From Streptomyces sp. TLI_105 (GTDB lineage: Bacteria; Actinomycetota; Actinomycetes; Streptomycetales; Streptomycetaceae), in contig NZ_FNSM01000001.1 in assembly GCF_900105415.1 (NCBI RefSeq), forward strand, positions 5,357,501 through 5,421,500: a DNA stretch of 64,000 nucleotides. Direction: 5' to 3'. The translations under genes and the position numbers were made by a program. Shown one piece after another: positions 33,414 through 47,832 of the stretch (position 1 is the stretch's first letter; each line of letters begins with the position of its first letter). The notes beneath the pieces are model-generated. The model had not been told where the DNA came from and did not search any database. It saw nothing but the letters and a program-made list of their open reading frames with translations.

Positions 33414-34373
33414 ATGGACGAGTTCGCCGAGGCCGGCGCGCGGGAGCGGCGCGCGCTCGTGCGGGAGATCGAGGCGGACGGCCTGCTGACGGACCCCGCC
33501 TGGCGGGCGGCCTTCGCCGAGGTGCCGCGCCACCTCTTCGTCCCGTACTACTACGTCTCCGGGCCCGGCGGCTACGAGCGGCTCTGGGCCGGCGACCCCG
33601 ATCCGGAGCGCCGGGAGCGCTGGCTGCGCGGGGCGTACGCGGACACCGCGATCGCCACCCGGGTACGGGACGGGGAGCTGGTCTCCTCCGCCAGCCAGCC
33701 CTCCCTGATGGCCCTGATGCTCGACGCCCTGGACGTACGCGACGGGGACGACGTCCTGGAGATCGGCGCCGGGAGCGGCTACCACGCGGCCCTGCTCTGC
33801 CACCGCCTCGGCGAGGAGCACGTCACCACCGTCGACCTCGACGAGGAGATCGCCGAGTCCGCCCGGACCCACCTCGCCGCCGTCGGGTACCGGCCCGCCG
33901 TGCTCGCCGCCGACGGCGCCCGCGGCTGCCCCGAGCACGCCCCGTACGACCGGATCGTGGCGACCTGCGCGGTGCCCTCCGTCCCGCACCCCTGGCTCGC
34001 CCAGTGCCGGCCCGGCGCGCTCGTCCTCGCGCCGCTCTCCACCGGGCTGATCCTGCTGCGGGTGCGCGACGCCGCGCACGCGGAGGGACGGTTCCTCGCG
34101 ACCTCCGCGTACTTCGTGGCGCTCCGGGGCGTCGCCGCCGGGGCCCCGGAGCACGACAACCCGCGCCCCGGCCCGGCCGGGGACGAGCGCTTCCTCTTCC
34201 TGTGGGGGCTGGTCGGCGGGACCCTCGACAGGCGCGAAGCGCTCTCGCTCTGGCTGCGCGAGCGGCGGCCGGGGCGGGAGCGCTTCGGGGTGACGGTCAG
34301 CGGCGACCGGCAGTGGGCCTGGCTGGACGACCCCGGAGGACCGTACGCCTGGCCCCTGCCGGGGACCGCCTGA
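33414..34373 (+). CDS. PCMT-like SAM-dependent methyltransferase
   Basis: A 319-aa protein related to protein-L-isoaspartate O-methyltransferase. It shows V-P-R-H-L-F-V-P-Y near residue 40, the SAM-binding V-L-E-I-G-A-G-S-G-Y-H (about 114), and a V-x-D-x-D-E-E-I post-I acidic loop. The S-x-x-S-Q-P-S segment is at the usual substrate-loop position. The C-terminal 100 residues exceed a standard PCMT and end with W-L-D-D-P-G-G-P. It could repair isoaspartyl residues or modify a peptide; no precursor peptide is nearby. Divergent from the globin gene. Confidence 0.85.
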   Translation: MDEFAEAGARERRALVREIEADGLLTDPAWRAAFAEVPRHLFVPYYYVSGPGGYERLWAGDPDPERRERWLRGAYADTAIATRVRDGELVSSASQPSLMALMLDALDVRDGDDVLEIGAGSGYHAALLCHRLGEEHVTTVDLDEEIAESARTHLAAVGYRPAVLAADGARGCPEHAPYDRIVATCAVPSVPHPWLAQCRPGALVLAPLSTGLILLRVRDAAHAEGRFLATSAYFVALRGVAAGAPEHDNPRPGPAGDERFLFLWGLVGGTLDRREALSLWLRERRPGRERFGVTVSGDRQWAWLDDPGGPYAWPLPGTA

Positions 34374-34417
34374 CGGTCTTCGTCAGGACGGTCTCCGTCG
34401 GGACGGTCTTCGTCAGG
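34373..34417. repeat. Three tandem 15-bp repeats between convergent genes
   Basis: ACGGTCTTCGTCAGG, ACGGTCTCCGTCGGG, ACGGTCTTCGTCAGG. The first copy overlaps the methyltransferase stop codon and the last overlaps the FHA gene stop. It encodes nothing and may be a replication-slippage product. Confidence 0.7.
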
Positions 34418-35801
34418 CGAGCCGGATCGTGATCGTGGTCCAGGCGCCGACGTGCACCCGGTCGCCGTCCTGGAGCTGGACGGGGACGTAGGGCTGGATC
34501 GGCTCCTCGCCGCCGTTCACCGTGGTGCCGTTGGTGGAGTTCTGGTCCACCACCGCCCACGAGCCGTCCGGCTGCTGCACCAGCACGGCGTGCTGGTGCG
34601 AGACGCCCGGGTCCTCCGGCGGCACCGACAGGTCGATGTCGGGGGACTCGCCGGTGGAGTGCCGGCGGCGGCCGATGGAGACCTGGTTGCCCCGGAGCGG
34701 CAGGTGCTTGTCCGGCGAGTACGCGGGCAGGTTCAGGCCCGTCGCCTCCGGACCGCTGCGCTGCATCATCGCCATGAAGTACTCACGGTCGGGACCGATG
34801 ACCGCGGTCCAGTTCAGGGGCTGCTGCCGCGGCGGCTGGAACTGCTGCGGAGGCTGCTGCTGCCCCTGCTGGTGCCCCTGGTGCTGGTGCTGCGGCGGGG
34901 GCCCCTGGTGCGGCGGAGGGCCCTGCTGCGGTGGAGGCTGCGGGGGCTGGTGCTGCTGCGGAGGCGGCGGGGCCTGGTGCGGCGGGGCCTGGTGCTGCGG
35001 TGCCTGCGGGGCCTGGTGCTGCGGCGGAGCCTGGGGCGGCTGGTGCTGCGACGGCGGCGACAGGACCCAGTCGTCGTCCGCGCGCGGCTGCGGCGGCGCG
35101 GGCGGGGCCGGGGCCTGGGCGGGTGCCTGGAGGTACGCGGGCGGGGCGGGCGGCTGCTGCTGCGCCGGCGGGCGCTGCGGCGGGGCCTGGTGGTGCGTGG
35201 GCTCGGCGCCCAGCGGCTCGGCCGGCCGGTTCACCTGCGAGGGCCGCGAGCCCTGGTAGCCGAACGGGTCCGGCTGCTGCTGGGGCTGCTGGGGCTGCTG
35301 CGGCGGCGGGGGCGGCGAGGACTGGAAGCCCGGCGGCAGGTTCAGACCGGGCGGCGGCCCGGGCTGCTGCGGCGGGGCGTTGTGGGGCGCGTTGTGCGGG
35401 GACAGCGGCGTGTACGAGGTCGCCGTGTTCGTGAGGAAGTTCCAGCGGCACTCCTCGCAGAACGGCGCCATGGGCTCGCGCGGCGTACGGCACTGCGGGC
35501 ACAGCTCCGCCTGGGCCGTCGCGTTCGGGTCGCCACCGTGACCGAAACCGCCGGGGGCCGCGGGGGCACCGGGGCCGAAGCCGCCCGGAGCACCGGGGGC
35601 GCCCGGCGGCGGGCCCATCGGGGGCTGACCGGGACCGGGCTGGCCGGGGCCCGCGGGGCCGGGGTATCCGTACGCGGGGGGCGGCGGCGGGGGAGGCGGC
35701 GGTACGGCACCCGTCGGCGCACCCGCCCCGGCCATGCGATGGCCGCAGACCTCGCACCAGTCGTCGGAGACCGACTGGTGTCCGTTCGGGCAGGTCGGCA
35801 T
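34413..35801 (-). CDS. Zinc-ribbon/FHA-domain protein (GarA-like output of the PknG cassette)
   Basis: A 462-aa protein. Two zinc ribbons lie at the N-terminus: C-P-N-G-H...C-E-V-C-G-H (about 4-20) and C-P-Q-C...C-E-E-C (about 96-120). A very long Pro/Gln/His-rich linker (about 140-330) follows. The C-terminal FHA domain (about 365-460) has the phospho-threonine-binding residues in S-I-G-R-R, V-S-H-Q-H-A and S-T-N-G-T. FHA domains read phosphothreonine. In mycobacteria the FHA protein GarA is the main PknG substrate, so an equivalent role here is a good inference. Last gene of the cassette. Confidence 0.88.
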   Translation of the reverse strand: MPTCPNGHQSVSDDWCEVCGHRMAGAGAPTGAVPPPPPPPPPAYGYPGPAGPGQPGPGQPPMGPPPGAPGAPGGFGPGAPAAPGGFGHGGDPNATAQAELCPQCRTPREPMAPFCEECRWNFLTNTATSYTPLSPHNAPHNAPPQQPGPPPGLNLPPGFQSSPPPPPQQPQQPQQQPDPFGYQGSRPSQVNRPAEPLGAEPTHHQAPPQRPPAQQQPPAPPAYLQAPAQAPAPPAPPQPRADDDWVLSPPSQHQPPQAPPQHQAPQAPQHQAPPHQAPPPPQQHQPPQPPPQQGPPPHQGPPPQHQHQGHQQGQQQPPQQFQPPRQQPLNWTAVIGPDREYFMAMMQRSGPEATGLNLPAYSPDKHLPLRGNQVSIGRRRHSTGESPDIDLSVPPEDPGVSHQHAVLVQQPDGSWAVVDQNSTNGTTVNGGEEPIQPYVPVQLQDGDRVHVGAWTTITIRLA

Positions 35802-35843
35802 GTCGGTGCTTCCCCCTCTCGTCGTCCGGCCCGGGTGGCCGGG

Positions 35844-37175
35844 CTACCTCTTGACGCGAACGGTCTTGGTGGAGCGGGTCTCGAGTGTCATCTCGTCCGC
35901 TTCCGCGACCTTCGCCTTCAAACGCACAGTACCGGTCGCCGCGTCGACCACGTCGACCACCTTCGAAAGCAGTTTCGCGGTATCCGCGTTGCCGGAGGCC
36001 GCCGCGAGCTGCACGGCACGGCCCAGTTTGGCCGTCGCACCGTCACGATCGCCCGATTTGCGGGCATCCAGGCCCTGCTGGATGACATCCGCGAGCTCGG
36101 CCTGCCCCGTGTAGTGCGCGACCTGCGGGTTGATCGACGTCGACATCGCGAGGTCGTCCGTCCACACCGCCCGTACCAGTCCTTGAGACAGCGGGCGCGG
36201 ATCGCCGCCCGCCGGGTCCGGGGCGATCAGGGAGACCCGGGCGGCGAGCATCTCCTGGCCGACCGCCGCCTGGGGGACCCGCACGCTCACGTGGTAGTCG
36301 CGGGACTCGTCGCCCCACGAGCCCGTCGGGTAGTCCCCGGCGCGCGGCCCGGCCTCGGTGCGCCGCCCCGTCAGGTCCTCGACCGACGGCGCCACCTGCT
36401 TCACGAACATGATCTCGACCCCCACCGGGGTCCACAGGCGCAGCGCGACGTCCGCCACGCCCTTGCCCATCGCGTCCTCCATCATCGTCGTGAAGTCGGT
36501 GGCGAGCCCGGCCGGGTCGGCGACGATGTCGGCCGTGCCGAGGAGCGCCGAGGCGATCCCGGTGACCTCCTTGACCTCCCAGTCCGTGCCGACCCCCCGC
36601 GCGTCGCAGGTGAACCGGCCTGCGCAGGCGTCGAGCGCGGCCCGCAGCTCCTCCGGCGACTCGTGCTCGTTGCGGCCGTCGGTGAGCAGGATGCCGTGCC
36701 GGATGGTGAGCTCGGCGGAGGAGAGCAGCCGGTCCGCGAGGCGCAGCCAGGTGCCGATCGCCGTGCCGCCGCCCGCGGAGAGCCGGCGCAGCGCCTCCTT
36801 CGCCTCGGCGCGGGTCCGGGCGTCGGCGACCGCGAGGCCGCCGTTCCCCGGGTAGACCTCCTTCGCGACGTGCGTCCCGGCGACGACGGCGAAGTGCGTG
36901 CCGTCGCGCAGGGTGTCGACGGCGGCGGCGGTGGCCTCCCGCGCGCCGCGCATCTTGGTCGCGGGGTAGTCCATCGAGCCGGAGCAGTCGACCATGATCA
37001 CCACACCGGCCGCGGCCGACCCGCCCGCGAAGCCCGTGTATCCGCCGCTGGTGCCGCCCCCGGTCGAGGTGACGGTGACGATCGCGCTGACGTCCCGGCC
37101 GCCCTCCGGCAGGAACTCGTTCTGGTAGACGTCCACCGAGAACTGGGGCACGGTCGGCTTGGAGAAGTTCGCCAT
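35844..37175 (-). CDS. von Willebrand factor type A domain protein
   Basis: A 443-aa protein beginning M-A-N-F-S-K-P-T-V-P-Q-F. The VWA domain (about 50-240) has an intact metal-ion-dependent adhesion site, V-D-C-S-G-S-M-D, with a further L-L-T-D-G-R-N segment. The C-terminal part is beta-rich, then helical with a TPR-like pattern (A-R-K-S-G-D-R-D-G-A-T-A-K-L-G-R). No signal peptide, so it acts in the cytoplasm, probably as a scaffold between kinase, phosphatase and FHA partners. 42 bp from the FHA gene, same strand. Confidence 0.88.
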   Translation of the reverse strand: MANFSKPTVPQFSVDVYQNEFLPEGGRDVSAIVTVTSTGGGTSGGYTGFAGGSAAAGVVIMVDCSGSMDYPATKMRGAREATAAAVDTLRDGTHFAVVAGTHVAKEVYPGNGGLAVADARTRAEAKEALRRLSAGGGTAIGTWLRLADRLLSSAELTIRHGILLTDGRNEHESPEELRAALDACAGRFTCDARGVGTDWEVKEVTGIASALLGTADIVADPAGLATDFTTMMEDAMGKGVADVALRLWTPVGVEIMFVKQVAPSVEDLTGRRTEAGPRAGDYPTGSWGDESRDYHVSVRVPQAAVGQEMLAARVSLIAPDPAGGDPRPLSQGLVRAVWTDDLAMSTSINPQVAHYTGQAELADVIQQGLDARKSGDRDGATAKLGRAVQLAAASGNADTAKLLSKVVDVVDAATGTVRLKAKVAEADEMTLETRSTKTVRVKR

Positions 37176-37239
37176 CTGTTTTCGGCTCCTACGCGACAGA
37201 CGCAACAACGGTGAAGGGGACGGGGATCGGCGACCGCTC

Positions 37240-38751
37240 TCAGGCGGATCCCGCCCCTTGCGGAGTGACGGTGAACGGGACGAGCGCGACCGTGATGTTG
37301 TCGTGGCCCCCGCCGTCCAGGGCGTGGCCGACGAGGACCTGCGCGCCGTGCAGCGGGCGGTCCGCGGCGTCCGCCGGGACGACCCGGGCCATGTCCTCCG
37401 CGGCCTCCGCGTAGTTCCACAGACCGTCCGTGCAGACCACCACCACGCCGGAACGATCCGGCTTGAACGCGGCGGTGTGCGGGTCCAGTTCGTACGAGTC
37501 GGCGCCGAGCCAGCCGGTGATCGCGTGGGCGCGCTCGTCCGCGTACGCCTCGGCCTCGTTCATCAGGCCCGCCGCGACCATCTGCGCGGCCCACGAGTCG
37601 TCCTCGGTGAGCCGGGCGGGCGGGGTGCTGCGGTCGTCCGGCACCCAGTAGGCCCGGCTGTCGCCGACCCAGCCCACGACGAGCAGGCCGGAGGCGACGA
37701 CGGAGCCGACGATGGTGCAGGCCGGGGCGTTGCGGTGGCGGTGCGGGTCGTGCTCCGCGCCGTCCTCACCGGGCTCCTCCGCGAGGGAGTTGACGGCCTC
37801 GGCGGCGGCCACGATCGCCTCGTGCATCGCCTGCTGCGGGTGCGTGCCCCGGGGCAGCGCGGCGAGCAGCGAGGCGCCGGCCGCCTCGGCGGCGGCGGCG
37901 GAGGCCTCGTCGGGGCGGGTCGCCGAGGAGACGCCGTCGCAGACGATCGCGAGGGTGGCGGGGGAGCCGTCGGGCAGGGTGGTCGACGAGACGGCGAACG
38001 CGTCCTCGTTGCGGTGGTGGCGCAGCCCGCGGTCGCTGACGGCGGCGACGCCGGCGAGCTCCCGCTCCATGTGGTCGCGCTCGCGCGGCTGCGCGTGCCC
38101 GCAGTTCTCGCAGTACCCGTCGGTGTCCACCCGCCCGGCCCGACAGGCCACGCAGATCACGGCGGCGGGAGCGGGGGCGGGGGGAGCGGTGGGCGCCGGG
38201 GCGGCGGCGGGCGCCGCGGCGGCCGGGGCCGGCTCCGCCCGCACGGCGGCACGGGGGTCGGGTGCGGCCAGCTCGAAGTCTCCGTCGGACGTGGGGGATC
38301 CGAGGGAGCGGGACGCGGGCGCGGGGGACACGGGTGCCGGGGCGCCGCCGGGCCCTGCGGCGCCGTCTGCCTCCGCACCGGGCGCCGTTCCGCCGGGCGT
38401 GGCGGCCCCCCGTGCGTCGTCGTCCGGCGCGGTCGTGCCGTCCCCCGCCGGGACCGGGCCGTCCGTGCGGACCTCCATCGTCGGGAGGTCGCGGCCGCCG
38501 GAGTCGGTGCCCGGCAGGTCGCCCGGGTGCTGGGTCAGGGTCGAGAGCGAACCGGGGTCGCGGGGCGGGGCGGCCGGCCAGGCCACGGGGGTGCCGATCG
38601 CCACGGTCGGGCGGTCGGGACCGGCCTCGGCGGACGGCACGGCCGACAGGTCGTAGCCGCACGCCCCGCAGAACCGGTCACCCGACTCCAGCGGCTCCGC
38701 GCAGCCCGGGCAGGCGGCGAGTCCGTGCGACGGCTTCGGCTTCTGGGACAT
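37240..38751 (-). CDS. PP2C-family serine/threonine phosphatase with N-terminal zinc ribbon
   Basis: A 503-aa protein. An N-terminal zinc ribbon (C-P-G-C-A-E...C-G-A-C-G-Y, about 14-35), a Pro/Ala-rich linker and a second C-x-x-C pair (C-V-A-C-R...C-E-N-C-G, about 205-225) precede the PP2C domain. Its motifs are R-H-H-R-N-E-D-A-F, C-D-G-V-S-S, G-D-S-R-A-Y-W, C-T-D-G-L-W and G-G-H-D-N-I-T-V, containing the aspartates that bind two metals. It should reverse phosphorylation by the PknG next to it. ATG 2 bp after the pknG stop; a GTG at 38763 is also in frame. Confidence 0.9.
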   Translation of the reverse strand: MSQKPKPSHGLAACPGCAEPLESGDRFCGACGYDLSAVPSAEAGPDRPTVAIGTPVAWPAAPPRDPGSLSTLTQHPGDLPGTDSGGRDLPTMEVRTDGPVPAGDGTTAPDDDARGAATPGGTAPGAEADGAAGPGGAPAPVSPAPASRSLGSPTSDGDFELAAPDPRAAVRAEPAPAAAAPAAAPAPTAPPAPAPAAVICVACRAGRVDTDGYCENCGHAQPRERDHMERELAGVAAVSDRGLRHHRNEDAFAVSSTTLPDGSPATLAIVCDGVSSATRPDEASAAAAEAAGASLLAALPRGTHPQQAMHEAIVAAAEAVNSLAEEPGEDGAEHDPHRHRNAPACTIVGSVVASGLLVVGWVGDSRAYWVPDDRSTPPARLTEDDSWAAQMVAAGLMNEAEAYADERAHAITGWLGADSYELDPHTAAFKPDRSGVVVVCTDGLWNYAEAAEDMARVVPADAADRPLHGAQVLVGHALDGGGHDNITVALVPFTVTPQGAGSA

Positions 38752-38753
38752 CC

Positions 38754-41372
38754 TCACACCCACGTCCTGGGGCGGAAGCGGTTGGCCCGCTCCACCAGTT
38801 CGATCCTCTCCTCGCCCCGCTGGGCGAGCCGGGCCAGCACCCGGTACGAGCGTTCGAGGCCGAAGCGCAGTCCGCGCTCGTCCAGTTCACTTCCGAGCAG
38901 CAGCGCGCCGCCGCCCGGTGCCGCACCGGGACTCCCGGAGAGTACCCAGTCGAGGGCCGTCCCGAGCACCTCCGTCGACAACCGCTCCCGGCGCACCGCG
39001 TCCAGACCGAAGCCCTGGAGCGCGGAGACCTGCGCCGCGGCCGCCGTCAGATCGGCGCCGAGCGGCTCGTGCGCCGGGCGCCGCCGCAGCCGCGCCCGCA
39101 CGGCCGCGACCCGCGCCGCCGTGTAGTGGATCGACGCCTCCGGTACGGATTCCAGGGCCTGTACGGCTCCGCTGCGGTCGCCGGCCGCGAGCCGGACCCG
39201 GGCGAGCCCGAAGGCCGCGCTGACGAAGCTGGGGTCCGTGGCCCACACCAGGCGGTAGTACTCGGCGGCGTTGTCCAGCTGGCCGAGGACCTCGGCGCAG
39301 ATCCCGAGGGCCAGCTTCGGCGCCGGCTCGCCCGGGAAGGCGTCGTAGACCGCGTCGAAGGCCAGCGCCGCGTGCTCGTGGTCGCCGGTCACCAGGGAGG
39401 CGACGCCCCGGTACCAGACGACCCGCCAGTCGTCCGGGTCCCGCTCCTCCAGCCCGGCGAGGGTCCGCGCGGAGGCGGGCAGGTCACCCAGCTCCAACTG
39501 GGCGCGCAGGGTGCGCAGTCTCAGCTCGGCGGAGGGGGCGGGCGCGCCCTGGAGCGCCCCGAGCAGCTCGCCCGGGGCGGCGGCCGCGAGACCGGCGAGG
39601 AAACCGGCGTTGGGGTCGCTCGTGTCGACGCGCGGCACGGGCAGGGCGAGCGCGGTGGCGGGCGCGTCGAGCGGCGCGAGCAGCCCTCCGAGCCCGGGAC
39701 CGGGGAGCGCCTGCGCCCCGGCGCCCGGCGCCTGCCCCGGAACGGCCCCCGCCGTCGGCGCCTGCACCGTGCCCGCACCGGCCGGCACCGTGCCCGCACC
39801 GGCCGGCACCGTGCCCGCCGCGGGCGTTCCGCGCCGCTTGCGGCCCCGGCGGGCGCCCAGCAGCGACACGTCCTCCGTCAGTTCGGCGAACAGCGTGGTG
39901 TCCGTGACCCGCACCTCCGTGCCGAAGAGCGTCGAGAGCGCCGGCCGCGGCCGCCCCGACTGGAGCGCCACGACCTCGCGCAGCACACCCGTCAGCTGCT
40001 CCGCCATCTCCTGCGCGGAGGCGAACCGGCGGGCCGGGTCCGGGTCGGTGGCGCGCACCAGGAAGCGGTAGTACGACTCGTACGTCCGGAAGACCTCGAT
40101 GTGATCCGGGTCGGGCAGCGAGTCCACGAAGACGTTCGTGTAGCCCTGGAAGTCGAAGGTCATCACGGCGAGCGTGCGCGCCACCGTGTACAGGTCGCTC
40201 GCCACCGACGGGCCGACCTCGGCCACCTCCGGCGCCTGGTAGCCGACCGTGCCGTAGATCGCGGACTCGTCGTCGTCCATCCGCCGGACCGCGCCCATGT
40301 CGATGAGCTTCAGCTGGTCCTCGGACTGGATGGCGTTGTCGACCTTGAAGTCGCAGTACAGCAGGTTCCTGCTGTGCAGGTGTCCGAGCGCCTCCAGGGC
40401 CTCGATCCCGTACGCGCAGGCCTGCTCCACCGGCAGCGGGTCGCGCCGGCCGTCGGGGGTGCGCCGGTCGTTGGCGATCTCCTTGAGCGACTTGCCGCCG
40501 ACGTACTCCATGACGATGTAGCCGTCCATGGAGCCGGTGCGCTGGTCGAGGTGCTCGACGAAGTTGTAGATGCGGACGATGTTGGAGTGCTCGATCTCGG
40601 CGAGGAAGCGGCGCTCGGAGATCGCCGCGGCCATGGCGTCCTGGTCGCCGGTGTCGAGGAGGCCCTTGAGGACCACCCACCGGTCGGAGACGGCCCGGTC
40701 GACGGCGAGGTAGATCCAGCCGAGTCCACCGTGCGCGAGGCAGCCCGCGACCTCGTACTGGCCGTGGACGATGTCGCCGGCGCGCAGCTTCGGCACGAAG
40801 GAGTACGGGTGCCCGCACTTGGTGCAGAAGCCCTCCGTGCGGCCCGGCCGGTCGCCCCGCGCGCGGCCCACCGGGGCCCCGCAGTCCGAACGGGAGCAGA
40901 AACGCTTCCGCTCGGGGACCTCGGCGTTCTCCATCACCGCAGCCCGCGGGTCGGGGCGCGGCACCTCGGGGATCGTCACCAGGCCCGCGCCCAGCCGGTT
41001 CCGGGCGGACTGCCCGGTCGACGAGCCCGAGCTGCGCACCGACACCGAGCGGCCCGTGGAGGCCCCGGAGGCCCCGGAGAGCGAGCGCGAGAGCCGGCCG
41101 GAGACCGACCGGCGCGAGGTCGAGGACCGGGACGAGGCGCGCGAGGAGGCCCGCGAACCGCTCCGCGAGGAGCCGGAGTCCGGCCCGCCGACACCCCCCG
41201 CCCCCTTGCCGGGCACGGCCATCCCGGTCGGCGTCGACCCGATGAGCCCCCCGGGCGCGACGACCGGGGCGAGCCCGCAGGTGTCGCAGTACAGCTCGCC
41301 GCCTCCCATGTCCTCGTACGAGCCCTCGCACGAAGGACGCTGACAGCTCCCCACGCCCGTCTCCCCGCTCAC
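38754..41372 (-). CDS. pknG: PknG-type serine/threonine protein kinase
   Basis: An 872-aa cytosolic kinase. An extra N-terminal zinc knuckle (C10, C15, C29, C32), a Ser/Arg-rich linker (about 60-120) and a rubredoxin-like pair (F-C-S-R-S-D-C-G and F-C-T-K-C-G-H) are followed by the kinase core. The core has V-V-L-K-G-L with the PknG-type invariant lysine, Y-C-D-F-K-V-D-N for the catalytic loop and D-M-G-A-V replacing D-F-G, all as in mycobacterial PknG. A TPR domain forms the C-terminal third. GTG start in a GTGA overlap with the coiled-coil gene. PknG governs glutamate and 2-oxoglutarate metabolism in response to amino acids. Confidence 0.93.
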   Translation of the reverse strand: MSGETGVGSCQRPSCEGSYEDMGGGELYCDTCGLAPVVAPGGLIGSTPTGMAVPGKGAGGVGGPDSGSSRSGSRASSRASSRSSTSRRSVSGRLSRSLSGASGASTGRSVSVRSSGSSTGQSARNRLGAGLVTIPEVPRPDPRAAVMENAEVPERKRFCSRSDCGAPVGRARGDRPGRTEGFCTKCGHPYSFVPKLRAGDIVHGQYEVAGCLAHGGLGWIYLAVDRAVSDRWVVLKGLLDTGDQDAMAAAISERRFLAEIEHSNIVRIYNFVEHLDQRTGSMDGYIVMEYVGGKSLKEIANDRRTPDGRRDPLPVEQACAYGIEALEALGHLHSRNLLYCDFKVDNAIQSEDQLKLIDMGAVRRMDDDESAIYGTVGYQAPEVAEVGPSVASDLYTVARTLAVMTFDFQGYTNVFVDSLPDPDHIEVFRTYESYYRFLVRATDPDPARRFASAQEMAEQLTGVLREVVALQSGRPRPALSTLFGTEVRVTDTTLFAELTEDVSLLGARRGRKRRGTPAAGTVPAGAGTVPAGAGTVQAPTAGAVPGQAPGAGAQALPGPGLGGLLAPLDAPATALALPVPRVDTSDPNAGFLAGLAAAAPGELLGALQGAPAPSAELRLRTLRAQLELGDLPASARTLAGLEERDPDDWRVVWYRGVASLVTGDHEHAALAFDAVYDAFPGEPAPKLALGICAEVLGQLDNAAEYYRLVWATDPSFVSAAFGLARVRLAAGDRSGAVQALESVPEASIHYTAARVAAVRARLRRRPAHEPLGADLTAAAAQVSALQGFGLDAVRRERLSTEVLGTALDWVLSGSPGAAPGGGALLLGSELDERGLRFGLERSYRVLARLAQRGEERIELVERANRFRPRTWV

Positions 41373-42664
41373 CACTGTCGTCCTCCCGCGTCTCCCGCGT
41401 CCCTCGTGTCCCTCGGCCCGGACAGCACGTCCGCCGCCGCCTGCTGATAGCGCAGCACCGCCTGCTCCGCGACCCGCAGGTCGCAGGGCGCGCTCCACAG
41501 CATCCGGCGCGCCGCGTCGTACCGCTCGACCAGCAGCGGATCCTCCGCCGCCCCGAGCCGCGCCACCTTCGCCTTGTACGCGTCGAGCCGGCCGCGCAGC
41601 TCGGCCCGGACCGCCAGCGGCGCCGTGACCGCCGTCAACTGCTCGCGGGCCCGCAGCAGTTCGTCCTCCGCCTCCCGCTCCAGGGACTCCAGGAGCGGGG
41701 AGAGCCGGTGCCACTGGGCGCGCCGGCGGTACTCGGCGGCGGCCGCGAGCCGCTCCTGGAGCACGATCGGCGGCCCGCTGACGGCCGGCACCTCGGAGGC
41801 GGCGATCTTCGCGAGGACCTCGCCGCGCGCCGACCGCGCCTCGGCGAGCGTCCGGTCCGCCCGCGAGAGCACGTCCCGCAGCCGGAGCAGCCGGTCCTCG
41901 GAGTCCTGCCGGACCGCGAGGACCGCCTCGATCTCGCGCCGGACGTCCTCCAGGGCCAGGGCGGCCCGGTCGTACCGCTCGGTGTCGGGCCGCCCGCCGC
42001 CCGGCGCCGAACTGCCCGCCGCCGGGCGCCAGAACGCCAGCGGGTCGGTCACGACCTGGGAACGCAGCGCGGTCAGCTCGGCCGTGATCGCCTCCAGCTC
42101 GTCCCCCGCCGGATGCTCCCCGGGCCGCACGCCGACCGAGTGCGCCAGCGAACGCGTCCGGCCCAGCTCGGCCGCGAGCAGGTCTATCCGGGCGGGCAGC
42201 GCCGACCAGACGGCGTCGGCGGTGACGACCAGGTCGAGCGAGGAGGCGTACAGCTCGTTCATCCGCCGGACCAGCCCCTCCAGGCTGAACCGCTCGGTGA
42301 GCAGGGCGCCCTCGGCGGCCCCGCCCGGGACGATCACGGTGTCGCCGCGCAGCCGGTCGGTCAGCTCCACGAGCTCCTCCCGGCCGGGCCAGCGGCGCCG
42401 CGCGCGCACCTCACGGGCGTCCCGCAGGGCGCCGGTGTACACGTCGAAGCAGGTCCAGAGCAGGGTGATGGTCCGCTCGGCGGCCGTCCACCGGTCCCGG
42501 GTCGTCCCGGTCAGCTCGGCCCCTTCGAGCAGCCTGCGGCCCGCGTGGTCCTGGAGCGCGAGGAGCGAGTCCTCGATCGCCTTGTGCTCGGCGCCGAGCC
42601 GCGCCAGCGCACGGTCCACCTCGTCCCGGTCCATCACCGGCCCGGGGGGTCCCGTGACGCCCAT
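41369..42664 (-). CDS. Coiled-coil protein of the PknG cassette
   Basis: A 431-aa protein of unknown function with long heptad-rich helices (about 15-40, 190-300, 340-400), many Glu/Arg/Ala residues, and no transmembrane segment. It lies between the GlnH-like and PknG genes, so it may link the membrane sensor to the kinase. AGAGG precedes the ATG at 42664; an alternative ATG is at 42633. The 3' end overlaps pknG by 4 bp. Absent from the three-gene mycobacterial unit. Confidence 0.7.
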   Translation of the reverse strand: MGVTGPPGPVMDRDEVDRALARLGAEHKAIEDSLLALQDHAGRRLLEGAELTGTTRDRWTAAERTITLLWTCFDVYTGALRDAREVRARRRWPGREELVELTDRLRGDTVIVPGGAAEGALLTERFSLEGLVRRMNELYASSLDLVVTADAVWSALPARIDLLAAELGRTRSLAHSVGVRPGEHPAGDELEAITAELTALRSQVVTDPLAFWRPAAGSSAPGGGRPDTERYDRAALALEDVRREIEAVLAVRQDSEDRLLRLRDVLSRADRTLAEARSARGEVLAKIAASEVPAVSGPPIVLQERLAAAAEYRRRAQWHRLSPLLESLEREAEDELLRAREQLTAVTAPLAVRAELRGRLDAYKAKVARLGAAEDPLLVERYDAARRMLWSAPCDLRVAEQAVLRYQQAAADVLSGPRDTRDAGDAGGRQW

Positions 42665-42720
42665 CGGTCACCTCTTCCGCTTCGTGTACAGGGTTGCTCG
42701 TCGGGGCGCGGTCGAGGCCG

Positions 42721-43857
42721 CTACTTGTACAACGGAGCGGGTGGCCCCGGTATCCCGGGGAGGTCCTTCTCCAGCCACTCCTCGTACGCGGCCTGCCAGG
42801 GGCCCTGCCGGTAGCCCACCAGGACCTGGTTGACCCGGCGCACCAGGTCGTCGTTGCCCAGCTTGGCCGCCACCCCGTAGTACTCCTCGGTGAACGGCCG
42901 GCCCTTGAGCTCGACCGCCGGGTCCTGCGCGGCCTGGCCGGCCGCGAGGGCGTTGTCGGTGACGACGGCGTCGACCTCGCCCATCTGGAGCCGGGCCAGG
43001 CAGTCCAGCTGGTTGGGGACGGTCAGCAGGTCCTTGTCGTCCTTGGTGCCGTCGGCCTCGTCCTTGAAGACCGCGCCGAAGGAGTTCTCCGCCAGGGCGT
43101 CGTAGGCCGTGGAGCCCTCGGCGGTGCAGATCCGCTTGCCGCGCAGCGAGGAGTCGTAGCCGGTGATGCCCTTGTCGAGCTTGGGCGCCAGGACCTGCTG
43201 GCCGGCCTGGAAGTAGGCGGTGGAGAAGGCGACCTGCTCGATCCGCTTGCAGTTGATCGTCATGGTGCGCACGACGAGGTCGACCTTGCCGCTGTTCAGC
43301 GCGGCGATCCGCTGGTTGGTCGGGATCGCGCGGAAGATGATCGCCTTCGGGTCGCCGAGGAGGTCCTTGGCGATGGCCCGGGCCAGGTCGATGTCGAAGC
43401 CCTCCAGGACGCCCTTCTCCGGGTTCCGGTAGCCCCAGCGGTAGCTGGACTGGTCGACACCGACGATCAGCTTCCCGCGGTCCTTGATCGCCCGGACCGA
43501 CGGGCCGTCCGCCGACGAGGGCGTGAGGGAGGCCTCGGGGTGCTCGCAGGTGTCGGCCTTGATCTGGACGCCGGTGCCCACGCCGGGGCCGGGCGTCCGG
43601 GGCGCGGCCGCCGCGCCGCTCCCGTCGTGCGCGAGGGGCAGCAGGGTCAGCGAGGCGGTGAGCCCGCAGGCCAGGGCCATGGTGGCCACCCCGCCCCAGC
43701 CCCGCAGCCGCCTGGCGGCCCGCCGCACCAGCGGGACCGCGCCGCTCGCCGTCGTCCGCAAGACCAGCGGATCCGCGCCGCTCGCCGTCGTCCGCGGCAC
43801 GAGCGGGTCCGCGCCGCTCGCCGTCCGCCGCACCAGCGGGTCCGTGCCGTTCGGCAT
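42721..43857 (-). CDS. glnH: GlnH-like amino-acid-binding protein with a repeat-bearing cytoplasmic N-tail
   Basis: A 378-aa protein. Residues about 1-50 are a cytosolic tail of near-identical repeats of about 13 aa (R-T-x-A-S-G-A-D-P-L-V). A transmembrane helix (about 55-80) follows, with A-L-A-C as a weak lipobox. The periplasmic-binding fold shows G-K-L-I-V-G-V-D-Q, G-F-D-I-D-L-A-R-A-I-A and F-R-A-I-P-T-N-Q-R-I, typical of polar amino-acid receptors. In mycobacteria GlnH binds aspartate and signals through GlnX to PknG. Position and fold support the same role. No transport permease is nearby. Confidence 0.87.
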   Translation of the reverse strand: MPNGTDPLVRRTASGADPLVPRTTASGADPLVLRTTASGAVPLVRRAARRLRGWGGVATMALACGLTASLTLLPLAHDGSGAAAAPRTPGPGVGTGVQIKADTCEHPEASLTPSSADGPSVRAIKDRGKLIVGVDQSSYRWGYRNPEKGVLEGFDIDLARAIAKDLLGDPKAIIFRAIPTNQRIAALNSGKVDLVVRTMTINCKRIEQVAFSTAYFQAGQQVLAPKLDKGITGYDSSLRGKRICTAEGSTAYDALAENSFGAVFKDEADGTKDDKDLLTVPNQLDCLARLQMGEVDAVVTDNALAAGQAAQDPAVELKGRPFTEEYYGVAAKLGNDDLVRRVNQVLVGYRQGPWQAAYEEWLEKDLPGIPGPPAPLYK

Positions 43858-43868
43858 CCCGCCCCCTC

Positions 43869-45296
43869 TCACCGGTACTCCGACAGTCTGCGGTTGATGC
43901 CGAGCACGGCGCCCGCCGCACCCAGGATCCCGAGGGCCGCCGCGCCCAGCGGCAGCGCGGTCAGCGCGTCCCTGGCGGCCCCGGCGGAGCGGGTGAACTC
44001 GGACTGCTCGTGCGCGAGGGCCCGCTCCAGGGCCGCGTCGACCTGGTCGAAGGACCGGCCGGTGGAGTCCTCGGCCCCGACGACCCGGGCGAGGGCGCCC
44101 TCGTAGTCGCCGGCCTCGTCCTTCGCGCGGGCGTCCTTGTGGCGCTCGCGCCAGTCGGCCGCGCGCGCGGCGGAGTCGTCCACCGGGCCGCGCCCGGCGT
44201 CGTCGTCCGCGAGCTCGCGCGCCGCGGCGAGCGCCGTCGTCAGGGCGCTCATGCTCGCCGTGTAGTCCGCCTCGTACTTGTCGTTCTTGCCGTCCTCGGT
44301 GAGGACGGCGCCCCGGGCGACCAGGGTCAGGTTCTCGTTGGCGCGGGCGGTGAGCGAGCTGATCCGGGCCGTGTTGAGGACCTGGAGGGACTCCTGCCCG
44401 TGCACCCGCGCGCTGTTCAGCTCGGTCCGCGTCACGGTGTGCGCGGCGAGGAGCCACAGCAGGACGACCACGGTGGCGGCGGTGGCGGCGAGCAGCCCGT
44501 GGTTGAAGACCCGGTTGGTGCGGGCGTAGTTGCGGCGCTGGGCCCAGAGGAGGACGCCGAGGACGAACAGGCCGAGCGCGAGCGACAGGAACGGCCAGGC
44601 GCGGGCCGAGTCGTCGTCCCGGTGCAGCCGCTCCGTCTCCGCCGCGTACAGCCGCTCGGCGGCCGGCAGCAGCGCACTGGTCATCTGCTGGTTGGCGTAC
44701 CGCAGATAGGCGCCGCCGAGCGGCAGGCCCTGCCGGTTGGCGGCCCGGGCGCGCTCGATCAGGCCCGTGTAGCGGGGGAGCTGCTCGTTGAGGGTGGCGA
44801 TCTCGCGGGCCGACGCGGACGAACCGTCCGTGTTCGCCGCGGCCTTGACGAGCAGCCGGGAGGCGGTGGTGATGTCCCGGGTGTAGCGCGCGCGGGACTC
44901 CGCGGGCTCCAGGGTGCCCGCCAGGAATCCGCCGGCGGCGGTGGTGTCGGCGTCGGCGAGGGAGCGGTAGATGGCGGCCGCGTCGGCGCTCAGGGGCTGG
45001 CTGCGGCTGACGACGTCGTCGGCGGCGGAGGTCCGGCCGGTGACCTCCAGGGCGGTGACGGCCCCGAACGCGACGACGAGCAGCGCCAGTACGGCCCCGA
45101 GGATCTGGAGGCGGCCGGGCTCGGTGGTCGCGGCCTCCCGCAGCCGCTCCCGTCCCACGGCCCAGGCGCCGCGCCCCGCGGGCGGGCCGGCGACGGGCAC
45201 GGGCGACGGCTGCGCGGGCAGGCCGCCGGGGCGCGCGGGCGCCTGAGCCGTGCCCCGCGCCACCGAGGCGGCGGGCGCGTTCGGCGGGTGTGTCAC
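43869..45296 (-). CDS. glnX: GlnX-like four-helix membrane sensor
   Basis: A 475-aa protein. After a Pro/Ala-rich cytosolic tail there is a transmembrane helix (about 75-95), a helical extracytoplasmic domain, two central helices (about 235-255 and 270-290), a second extracytoplasmic helical domain and a last helix at about 445-465. This tandem sensor topology is that of mycobacterial GlnX, which senses GlnH and controls PknG. GTG start at 45296; an upstream reading adds a poorly conserved 24 residues. First gene of the cassette; only 11 bp separate it from glnH. Confidence 0.85.
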   Translation of the reverse strand: MTHPPNAPAASVARGTAQAPARPGGLPAQPSPVPVAGPPAGRGAWAVGRERLREAATTEPGRLQILGAVLALLVVAFGAVTALEVTGRTSAADDVVSRSQPLSADAAAIYRSLADADTTAAGGFLAGTLEPAESRARYTRDITTASRLLVKAAANTDGSSASAREIATLNEQLPRYTGLIERARAANRQGLPLGGAYLRYANQQMTSALLPAAERLYAAETERLHRDDDSARAWPFLSLALGLFVLGVLLWAQRRNYARTNRVFNHGLLAATAATVVVLLWLLAAHTVTRTELNSARVHGQESLQVLNTARISSLTARANENLTLVARGAVLTEDGKNDKYEADYTASMSALTTALAAARELADDDAGRGPVDDSAARAADWRERHKDARAKDEAGDYEGALARVVGAEDSTGRSFDQVDAALERALAHEQSEFTRSAGAARDALTALPLGAAALGILGAAGAVLGINRRLSEYR

Positions 45297-45586: not shown

Positions 45587-46570
45587 TCAGCCCTCGTACC
45601 GCTCCCGCAGCCGGGCCTTCGCCTCCGGGGCCGCCGCCACCTCGTCCAGGGCGAGGAGCCCCGCACCGAGGACCGGCGGCGCGGTCACGAAGCCGATCAC
45701 CGCCTTCGGCGCCCGCGCCGCGAGGAGTTCGCGGATCCGCTCCTCCAGCTGCGGGTGACGCGCGGCGAGCACGCTGCCGCCCAGCATCACCGGCGCCTCC
45801 TCGCGGTGGAGTCCGAGCCGGCGCAGCGCGACCGCCGACATGGCGACGACCTCCTCGGCCTGCCGGTGCACGATCGACAGCGCCACCGGATCGCCCCCGG
45901 CCGCGACCGCGAACAACACCGGCGTCAGCTCGTGCCGCCGCGCCATCGGGATCCCGCCCAGGTGCAGCGCCTCGATCAGCGCGTACATCGACTCCAGGCC
46001 GAAGTGCGCGGGCAGCGCGTCGGAGAGGGCGGTGGGCAGCCCCCGCCCGTCCTCGGCGCGCGCCGCGAACCACAGGGCCTCGTCGGCCAGTCCGCCACCC
46101 CCGCCCCAGTCCCCGGAGATCTTCCCGATCGCGGGGAAGCGCGCGGTCCGCCCGTCCGGCGTCATTCCGACGCAGTTGATCCCGGCCCCGCACACCACGG
46201 CCACGCCCCGCGGCTCGTCGAGCCCGGCCCGCAGGATGGCGAAGGTGTCGTTGTGGACCCGTACGGACCGGCTCAGGCCCCGGCCGAGCAGCTCGGCCCG
46301 GAGCGCGGCCTCCTCGACGGGCAGGTCGGCATTGGCGAGACAGGCCGCGACATGCGCGAACGCCGGGGGAAGCCCGGCACCGCCGGCCTCCTCCCATGCC
46401 CTTCCGACGATCTCCACGAGCCCGTCGACCGCCGCCCCCACCCCCACCACGGGGGGCTGGAACCCGCCGCCGCGCGCCGCCCCCAGGACGGTCCCGTCCT
46501 GGGAGAGCACCGCGACGTCGGTCTTGCTGTTCCCCGCGTCGACCGCGAGGAGCACCCCGTTCAGGTTCAC
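45587..46570 (-). CDS. BadF/BadG-type ATPase, N-acetylglucosamine kinase-like
   Basis: A 327-aa sugar kinase of the ASKHA fold. Phosphate-1 motif L-A-V-D-A-G-N-S-K-T-D, phosphate-2 V-V-C-G-A-G-I-N, a G-D-W-G-G-G-G-G-L-A-D motif and adenosine-loop G-G-S-V-L-A match NagK-type kinases. It phosphorylates a hexose or amino sugar in the cytosol at O-6. GTG at 46570 forms a GTGA overlap with the GH4 gene; an in-frame GTG at 46576 is also possible. Last gene of the ROK-controlled operon. Confidence 0.87.
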   Translation of the reverse strand: MNLNGVLLAVDAGNSKTDVAVLSQDGTVLGAARGGGFQPPVVGVGAAVDGLVEIVGRAWEEAGGAGLPPAFAHVAACLANADLPVEEAALRAELLGRGLSRSVRVHNDTFAILRAGLDEPRGVAVVCGAGINCVGMTPDGRTARFPAIGKISGDWGGGGGLADEALWFAARAEDGRGLPTALSDALPAHFGLESMYALIEALHLGGIPMARRHELTPVLFAVAAGGDPVALSIVHRQAEEVVAMSAVALRRLGLHREEAPVMLGGSVLAARHPQLEERIRELLAARAPKAVIGFVTAPPVLGAGLLALDEVAAAPEAKARLRERYEG

Positions 46571-47832
46571 GCCCACGCGAGGTGCTCCCGGTTGTGCGCG
46601 ATCAGCCGGTCGGTGAGCCCGTCGGCGTACGCGTACTGCCCGACCAGCGGGTGCGCGAGCAGTGCCTTGAAGACCCGGTCACGGCCGCCGCGCAGCGCCG
46701 CCTCCAGGGCCAGGTCCTCGTAGGCCGTCACGTTCGCGATCAGACCGGCGAACAGCGGGTCCACCGGCGCGACCGGCAGCGGAGTGGCGCCGTGCGCGCC
46801 GACCGCCGCCTGCGTCTCGATCACGGCGTCGTCCGGCAGGAACGGCAGCGTGCCGTTGTTGTACGTGTTCACCACCTGGTACGGCGAACCCCCGCCACCG
46901 AGGAGGGAGGCCGCCAGGTCCACCGCCGCCTCCGAGTAGAAGGCGCCGCCCCGCTTGGCGAGCAGCGCCGGCTTCTCGTCGAGCGCCGGGTCCCCGTACA
47001 TCTCCAGGAGCTCCCGCTCCATCGCCGCGACCTCGGCGGCCCGCGAGGGCTTCGTGCCGAGCTCCCGCACCACCTCGTCGTGCGCGTAGAAGTACCGCAG
47101 GTAGTACGAGGGGACGACGCCGAGCCGGTCCAGGACCGGGCGCGGCAGGCGGAGGTCCCCGGCGATCGCGTCGCCGTGCCCGGCGAGCAGCCGGGGCAGC
47201 ACGTCCTCCCCCTCGGGGCCCCCGATCCGTACCGCCCGCTCCCACGTCAGGTGGTTGAGCCCGACGTGGTCGAGGTGGACCTCGGACGGGGTCACGCCGA
47301 GGAGCTTCGCGAACTTCCGCTGGAAGCCGATGGCCACGTTGCACAGGCCGACGGCCTTGTGCCCGGCTTGGAGCAGTGCGCGCGTGACGATGCCGACGGG
47401 GTTGGTGAAGTCGATGATCCAGGCGTCCGGGTTGGTGCGCCGGACCCGCTCGGCGATGTCCAGGACGACCGGGACCGTGCGCAGCGCCTTGGCGAGGCCG
47501 CCGGCACCGGTGGTCTCCTGGCCGACGCAGCCGCACTCCAGCGGCCAGGTCTCGTCCTGCTCGCGGGCGGCCTGTCCCCCGACCCGCAGCTGGAGCAGGA
47601 CGGCGTCGGCGCCCTCGACCCCGGCGTCGAGGTCGCTCGTGGTGACGACCTTGCCGTCGTGGTCCTGCTTGGCGAAGATCCGCCGGGCCAGGCCGCCGAC
47701 GAGCTCGAGGCGGTCGGCGGCGGGGTCGACGAGGACGAGTTCGGTGATGGGCAGGGTGTCGCGCAGGCGCGCGAATCCGTCGATCAGTTCGGGGGTGTAG
47801 GTGGAACCGCCCCCCACGACAGCGAGCTTCAT
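46567..47832 (-). CDS. GH4 6-phospho-beta-glucosidase
   Basis: A 421-aa NAD- and metal-dependent glycosidase. N-terminal NAD-binding A-V-V-G-G-G-S-T-Y-T-P-E-L is followed by D-P and G-G-L-A-R. The metal site C164-N165-V matches the C-N-V/I-P type of 6-phospho-beta-glucosidases (alpha-specific members carry C-H-S or C-H-E), and H194 is in G-L-N-H-L-T-W. The reaction uses transient oxidation at C3 and cleaves 6-phospho-beta-glucosides. Overlaps the kinase downstream by 4 bp. Confidence 0.9.
   Translation of the reverse strand: MKLAVVGGGSTYTPELIDGFARLRDTLPITELVLVDPAADRLELVGGLARRIFAKQDHDGKVVTTSDLDAGVEGADAVLLQLRVGGQAAREQDETWPLECGCVGQETTGAGGLAKALRTVPVVLDIAERVRRTNPDAWIIDFTNPVGIVTRALLQAGHKAVGLCNVAIGFQRKFAKLLGVTPSEVHLDHVGLNHLTWERAVRIGGPEGEDVLPRLLAGHGDAIAGDLRLPRPVLDRLGVVPSYYLRYFYAHDEVVRELGTKPSRAAEVAAMERELLEMYGDPALDEKPALLAKRGGAFYSEAAVDLAASLLGGGGSPYQVVNTYNNGTLPFLPDDAVIETQAAVGAHGATPLPVAPVDPLFAGLIANVTAYEDLALEAALRGGRDRVFKALLAHPLVGQYAYADGLTDRLIAHNREHLAWA

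Follow-up and report, generated by a model that had tools for sequence, protein, structure and literature searches.

Introduction

PknG is a regulator of central metabolism and the subject of many studies. In Mycobacterium and Corynebacterium, its gene belongs to a three-gene operon, glnX-glnH-pknG, in which a membrane sensor (GlnX) and a binding protein (GlnH) accompany the kinase, which acts on GarA (OdhI). The presence of homologues of these three genes within a longer run in Streptomyces sp. TLI_105 raises the question of which arrangement is ancestral and of what the additional genes contribute. The run lies on the minus strand, at 34413-45296 of the stretch that we analysed (64,000 nucleotides of contig NZ_FNSM01000001.1, hereafter the window), and encodes GlnX, GlnH, a coiled-coil protein (CC), PknG, a PP2C-family phosphatase (PP2C), a VWA protein, and an FHA protein. 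An earlier note on this DNA had listed these seven genes, and its coordinates and its minus-strand run proved exact. It had also read the run as an extension of the mycobacterial standard. We argue here that the seven genes are probably the complete, ancestral form of the PknG amino-acid-sensing module, and that the three-gene operon of mycobacteria and corynebacteria is probably a short form of this larger set.

The seven-gene locus is widespread in actinobacteria

We searched a class-wide sample of 246 genomes for components of the locus. The PknG-type TPR domain (PknG_TPR) scored above the cut-off in 88 genomes, the VWA protein was found in 58 (E 1e-20), and CC, by single-sequence search, in 47. 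The VWA gene lies 0-5 kb downstream of the PknG TPR region, on the same strand, in 54 of the 58 genomes that have it, an arrangement far beyond chance; of the four exceptions, three have VWA and PknG on separate contigs and one (G075) has a broken VWA elsewhere. Gene order was established by iterated profiles over 165 loci, comprising the window, four extra loci, 80 PknG regions from the class-wide genomes, and 80 named loci, which are the best 80 of at least 587 and are biased to Nocardioidaceae, Micrococcales and relatives by the first row of the query. The order GlnX-GlnH-CC-PknG-PP2C-VWA-FHA was present in 53 loci and the same order without a detected CC in 40. GlnX-GlnH was placed downstream of PP2C-VWA-FHA in 15 further loci, and GlnX-GlnH-PknG stood alone in 16, one of which (L153) is cut by a contig end. 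For the classing of linkage, 161 loci were examined, from which 9 were dropped for contig ends and 14 for having no kinase motif. PP2C, VWA and FHA were all linked to PknG in 108 of the 138 classifiable loci, from Streptomyces, Kitasatospora, Nocardioides, Cellulomonas, Actinoplanes, Actinomadura, and Acidimicrobiales. This survey, which the earlier note had called for, shows that the module is not strain-specific and that it is indeed wider than the published operon. The module is real and deeply conserved.

Within Streptomyces, the seven genes are in order in 23 of 24 genomes, including the window's; the remaining locus (L065) is cut by a contig end and begins within PknG. Among the 23, CC (G016, G213) or PknG (G116) is interrupted in the assembly by a frame change or a stop. 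One cluster of the 23 is decaying (L060, a 20 kb region of G134): most of PknG is gone and VWA, GlnH and GlnX are fragmented; CC, PP2C and FHA are still long open frames, and the genome has a GarA with a zinc ribbon (L218). The full order also occurs in Kitasatospora, Actinoplanes relatives, two Nocardia, and most loci of family f16, and two Acidimicrobiales loci hold CC-PknG-PP2C-VWA-FHA with no GlnX or GlnH in the same run. It is therefore very improbable that these are unrelated neighbours kept together by common inheritance only. Close gene packing is common in Streptomyces and would fit such a view, but the order survives across families, in the Acidimicrobiales and in a metagenome-assembled genome (MAG) of Dormibacteraeota, and VWA and CC are missing from the mycobacterial-type genomes (family f4), by the searches made, rather than dispersed in them.

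The locus also varies. That of the Dormibacteraeota MAG (L196), outside the usual actinobacterial classes and with contamination possible, reads PknG-PP2C-VWA-FHA-GlnX-GlnH, and its genome gave no GarA at E 1e-20. Two loci of family f15 (L080, L081) keep CC, PknG, PP2C and FHA, with no VWA detected. Several Streptomyces genomes carry a divergent second PknG-like gene (L122-L126); a VWA gene comes after it in two of the five loci (L125, L126), and neither GlnX nor GlnH was detected there. Kibdelosporangium aridum has four PknG modules in one genome, ranging from short (L206) to the complete seven genes (L284), with GlnX-GlnH-CC-PknG-VWA (L285) and CC-PknG-VWA-GlnX-like (L286) between them; CC, PknG and VWA stay together in three of the four.

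The short operon is probably a reduced form

We inferred a tree of the PknG kinase-TPR region with FastTree (n=138). In this tree, the f4 PknGs, none of which has linked extra genes, form one clade, which is sister to the two Nocardia PknGs from full clusters and falls among full-cluster lineages. Amycolatopsis arida, Kibdelosporangium, Herbihabitans, and G227 make up a second short-form group. The minimum number of changes of linkage state on the tree is four, and the simplest reading is that the extra genes were likely lost at least twice; this direction is likely, and unproved because the root is the midpoint and some deep forks are weak. The searches gave no VWA gene in any of the 11 f4 genomes, nor in Herbihabitans or A. 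arida, and no f4 genome is among the 58 VWA-positive genomes of the class-wide sample. Hence, the idea that the mycobacterial operon is the standard and the present locus an extension is probably backwards, since the short form nests inside the long one. The window PknG is closest, among the loci in the tree, to those of S. gardneri and Streptomyces sp. Root1304. Should the short operon prove to be a reduced form, the current model leaves out proteins that may hold and reverse the system in many actinobacteria.

The probable metabolic target is encoded elsewhere

The host genome (G000, 8.88 Mb) holds 11 FHA domains. The true GarA lies 1.5 Mb from the module (C1:6899403-6899921), bears the motif SETTSTISISG, which includes the ETTS site, and has an N-terminal zinc ribbon. 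A GarA match was found in all 53 genomes searched. The ribbon is present in 40 of these and absent from the other 13, which are the 11 genomes of family f4, G227, and G023. Sixteen genomes have a short-form locus (the 11 of f4, G227, G194, Herbihabitans, Kibdelosporangium, and A. arida, some of which carry further modules), and one of them, G194, has the GarA ribbon. Among the named genomes, GarA was found in 21 of 22, nine times with the ribbon.

The local FHA protein was tried as a candidate GarA and rejected. It has the intact FHA phosphothreonine residues expected of a GarA/OdhI-like protein; an alignment of its relatives shows no conserved ETTS-like motif before the FHA domain, where only Thr124 (78%) approaches conservation, its similarity to GarA is marginal (E 9e-4), and the genome has its GarA elsewhere. 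These results do not support two elements of the earlier note, which had described the module as self-contained and the FHA protein as its output. A related possibility, implied there, is that the local protein is the direct regulatory substrate and effector of PknG and replaces GarA. Its co-encoding and intact pocket would suit this role, and FHA proteins are known substrates of PknG (PMC8546545). We nevertheless find it quite unlikely, given the ETTS-bearing GarA in the same genome, the GarA match in 52 of 52 other genomes, the absence of a strongly conserved Thr motif before the FHA domain, and the weak resemblance of the local protein to GarA.

Conserved residues and folds of the components

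The chain of PknG carries rubredoxin (PF16919), kinase (PF00069), and PknG-type TPR (PF16918) domains in Pfam and matches the solved mycobacterial PknG (2pzi) at E 2e-168. Its catalytic Lys and Asp are kept in the window and in, respectively, 157 and 159 of 159 aligned rows. The other members matched PP2C_2, VWA_3 with VWA_3_C, SBP_bac_3 (GlnH), and FHA, and the Pfam scan gave no family for CC or GlnX. We identified GlnX by its position, its four hydrophobic segments, and its homology to mycobacterial-type GlnX (E 3e-38 in L111), and GlnH matches that of M. tuberculosis (6h1u, E 2e-48). The VWA protein has a solved relative titled only "von Willebrand factor type A" (4fx5, E 2.8e-138). Its metal-site residues are kept in 123 of 123 rows, and the PP2C motif residues in 120-128 of 129. 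In the FHA pocket, over 122 rows, Gly is kept in 121, Arg in 117, Ser in 121, His in 111 (Gln in 10), and Asn in 121. Because the key residues of the kinase, PP2C, VWA and FHA proteins are near-invariant, reversible phosphorylation by the module, as first proposed from the window's sequence, is plausible. So is the proposed scaffold role of CC, because this protein is confidently modelled as all-helical (AlphaFold2, alignment of 26 sequences, mean pLDDT 90.8). Named Streptomyces proteins match CC at up to 98% identity, and a search for structural relatives with the model gave no significant match.

The linker of PknG has, in 27 Streptomyces-type sequences, a conserved Ser/Arg-rich stretch, and Thr50 is its single well-conserved Thr outside the ribbon. 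By analogy with the autophosphorylated PknG N-terminus, which recruits FHA substrates (PMC8546545), Thr50 stands out as the best single candidate residue for FHA docking.

The GlnX tail and the GlnH pocket

The GlnX frames end in YR in 110 of 137 cases, and 96 of the 137 fit R(L/I)xEY(R/K). Among 131 aligned GlnX sequences, the first Arg of the tail is kept in 100%, Glu in 93%, Tyr in 93%, and the last Arg in 85%, compared with a mean of 40% per position. The R(L/I)xEYR tail is also found in short-form genomes. This conservation makes the tail a candidate for the GlnX-PknG contact. In the short cytoplasmic loop between segments 2 and 3, position 276 of the aligned frame is always Arg and position 279 is Asn in 95%, and this loop is a possible second contact site. 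The short cytoplasmic ends of GlnX have been suggested as TPR-bound peptides (PMC6069109) and the GlnX-PknG contact has been called elusive (PMC9769921); these passages mention no conserved motif.

In the solved mycobacterial GlnH, Arg147, Thr162 and Trp232 contact the side chain of Asp or Glu (PMC6069109). The window GlnH keeps the Arg and the Thr and has Gln in place of Trp232. Over 136 rows, the commonest residues at this position are His (37), Gln (31), Tyr (19), and Trp (18), the Trp being confined to the 11 f4 loci, L086, L197, L206, L207, both Nocardia, and one Actinoplanes. Lineages may thus differ in their ligand. With two of the three contacts kept and the third changed, a response to glutamate or aspartate is uncertain for the window system. 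At the end of the GlnH signal segment we saw by eye no convincing lipobox, with ALAC lying inside the hydrophobic stretch. The Corynebacterium GlnH has been described as a lipoprotein, and that of the window may be membrane-anchored.

Zinc ribbons and linkage

Extra N-terminal zinc ribbons occur in three proteins of the window, as already remarked in the earlier note: one in PknG, two in PP2C, and two in the FHA protein. The PknG ribbon is present in 106 of the 108 fully linked loci and in 3 of 20 loci without linked PP2C, VWA and FHA (L082, L173, and L206, after correction of two false PP2C matches), counts that are not independent of kinship. It thus appears largely to track linkage to these genes. 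Two ribbon types recur between proteins. The knuckle DGYC(D/E)xCG is common to the PknG ribbon and PP2C ribbon 2 in most cases; in Streptomyces PknG it reads LYCDTCG. The other type, FCxxCG with a spacing of 10, is found in PP2C ribbon 1, FHA ribbon 2, and GarA. This second type is a common kind of ribbon, and its sharing is therefore weaker evidence. The DNA pattern of DGYC(D/E)xCG was found in 17 of 21 genomes searched, including G000, and a reversed control pattern had no match in them. G000 has one copy in its 8.88 Mb, inside PP2C (window 38099-38121), and two genomes of other families have four copies each within ~2.7 kb, all eight in PknG or PP2C of seven-gene clusters. Because the copies located genome-wide (3 of the 17 genomes, the other 14 having single copies that were counted only) fall in the module's PknG and PP2C, the pattern looks close to private to the module.

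These matches allow a bolder scheme, which we consider unlikely to hold in all its parts. PknG, PP2C, the FHA reader and GarA would recognise one another via the two matching ribbon types, with PP2C, which has one ribbon of each type, as the bridge; GlnX would drive the complex via its C-terminal R(L/I)xEYR peptide on the PknG TPR; and the short system of mycobacteria and corynebacteria would be what remained after the joint loss of the ribbons, VWA, CC and the local phosphatase.

A model for the module

We propose that the locus encodes an amino-acid-gated PknG complex with a local phosphatase and phosphothreonine reader, which acts on GarA, and we give this proposal as a whole a probability of roughly 0.55. 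By homology to tested systems, GlnH would bind an extracellular amino acid and signal through GlnX, the state of which would reach PknG via the cytoplasmic R(L/I)xEYR tail, probably docked on the PknG TPR. CC, VWA and the matching zinc ribbons would gather PknG, PP2C and the FHA protein in one membrane complex. There, judging from domains and near-invariant catalytic residues, active PknG would autophosphorylate its own Ser/Arg-rich N-terminal linker, the FHA protein would read the phosphothreonine mark, and PP2C would erase it. The metabolic output would still be GarA, with phosphorylation expected at ETTS, and the Streptomyces GarA ribbon, of the same type as one PP2C ribbon, may bring GarA to the complex. 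The module would in this way place 2-oxoglutarate and glutamate metabolism under reversible control gated by amino acids. The mechanism of the short form is published (PMC6069109, PMC9769921, PMC8546545).

Several observations weigh against this proposal. The GlnH pocket differs from the solved one, and the signal may therefore not be Asp or Glu. Of the 17 named full-cluster genomes with a GarA, 8 lack the GarA ribbon, which is thus no requirement of the cluster; in G194, the ribbon occurs although no extra genes are linked to PknG. With CC undetected in 40 loci that hold all the other genes in order, this protein is either dispensable in places or too divergent for the profile. The FHA protein may read a target other than PknG, the linker of which offers one well-conserved Thr (Thr50, in Streptomyces). 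The association of the PknG ribbon with linkage comes down to only four independent contrasts, of which ~2.8 favour it, none oppose it, and 1.2 are neutral (sign test p 0.25). Finally, the PknG ribbon of the window ends in LYCDTCG instead of DGYC, and the shared knuckle is therefore only partly kept here.

Alternatively, two systems may be stacked: GlnX-GlnH-PknG would control GarA, and CC-PknG-PP2C-VWA-FHA would be a phosphorylation-controlled assembly switch with another output, e.g., a membrane or cytoskeletal complex, as when kinase, PP2C and FHA control type VI secretion. We hold this reading, output included, to be tentative and on balance rather improbable. GarA is conserved in short-form genomes too, and its control as such therefore does not depend on the extra genes. 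Other modules have CC-PknG-VWA without PP2C and FHA, the two Acidimicrobiales loci have the extra genes with no GlnX or GlnH in the same run, and kinase, PP2C and vWA with zinc ribbons beside GAP1-N2 GTPases of actinobacteria have been read as control of complex assembly (PMC7159879). Yet most loci keep GlnX-GlnH next to the extended set, including those in which the pair sits at the other end (family f15, Actinomadura), and the Streptomyces GarA ribbon is of the same type as ribbons of PP2C and the FHA protein.

Layout of the locus

The features are listed in Table 1. The seven genes had been described as one run with overlaps; the run stands, and the one clear overlap is that of CC and PknG (7 nt). 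The remaining junctions are gaps of 11 (GlnX/GlnH), 56 (GlnH/CC), 2 (PknG/PP2C), 64 (PP2C/VWA), and 42 nt (VWA/FHA), and an alternative GTG start of PP2C at 38763 would give one further overlap. At the FHA end, the run is flanked by a convergent gene on the plus strand for a protein-isoaspartate methyltransferase-like protein (33414-34373), and at the GlnX end by a gene for a BadF-type ATPase (45587-46576). A simple scan of the locus for E. coli-type promoters and terminators, which says little for Streptomyces, gave none.

Table 1. Genes and motifs of the PknG locus, in window coordinates.
Feature	Position	Strand	Basis
GlnX-like membrane sensor, 475 aa, GTG start, four hydrophobic segments	43869..45296	-	homology to GlnX beside PknG
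GlnX C-terminal tail RLSEYR, i.e., R(L/I)xEYR-COOH; candidate PknG docking peptide	43872..43889	-	conservation
GlnH-like amino-acid binding protein, 378 aa	42721..43857	-	SBP_bac_3; 6h1u match
CC, all-helical coiled-coil protein, 431 aa; proposed scaffold	41369..42664	-	predicted model
PknG, GTG start: extra ribbon, Ser/Arg-rich linker, rubredoxin, kinase, TPR	38754..41375	-	Pfam
PknG extra N-terminal zinc ribbon, CQRPSC...LYCDTCG	41274..41345	-	
PknG linker, conserved Ser/Arg-rich stretch; candidate autophosphorylation region, Thr50 just before	41064..41135	-	27 Streptomyces-type sequences
PP2C-family phosphatase, 503 aa, two N-terminal zinc ribbons	37240..38751	-	PP2C_2
PP2C ribbon 1, FCxxCG type, spacing 10, as in GarA and FHA ribbon 2	38656..38712	-	
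PP2C ribbon 2, DGYCExCG type, as in PknG of many relatives	38098..38154	-	
VWA protein, 443 aa, intact MIDAS metal site, VWA_3_C	35844..37175	-	VWA_3; 4fx5 match
Ribbon-linker-FHA protein, 462 aa, not GarA	34413..35801	-	
FHA domain, intact phosphothreonine residues GR, SxxH, NG	34446..34682	-	
FHA protein ribbon 1, CPNGH...WCEVCG	35742..35792	-	
FHA protein ribbon 2, CPQC...FCEEC	35448..35501	-	

Comparison with known systems

VWA, PP2C and a kinase are also encoded together in the TerY-P triad of tellurium-resistance type systems. The threonine phosphorylation pathway of type VI secretion (PpkA, PppA, Fha1) likewise has a Hanks-type kinase, a PP2C and an FHA protein encoded together, but its VWA domain lies within PpkA (PMC1262709), whereas that of the window is a separate gene, and its output is a secretion machine, whereas the window has GlnX and GlnH as sensor. 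A Pfam scan of nine proteins of the window region gave no secretion proteins. The zinc-ribbon kinase, PP2C and vWA neighbours of GAP1-N2 GTPases are a further parallel, described in a passage that does not mention PknG, GlnX, GlnH or FHA (eLife 2020, PMC7159879).

The closest relative is the glnX-glnH-pknG operon, whose three products are homologous to those of the window and are encoded in the same order; as in the window's genome, an ETTS-bearing GarA is encoded elsewhere. The operon is stated to be conserved in Actinomycetales (PMC6069109), in passages that do not name the four extra genes. The GlnX tail, the ribbons and the local PP2C are direct, testable leads, and engineering of GarA has raised antibiotic yield in a related actinomycete (PMC12321487). 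Compared with the operon, the window adds four linked genes (CC, PP2C, VWA, and FHA), an extra ribbon on PknG and a ribbon on GarA, and it has a changed ligand pocket in GlnH.

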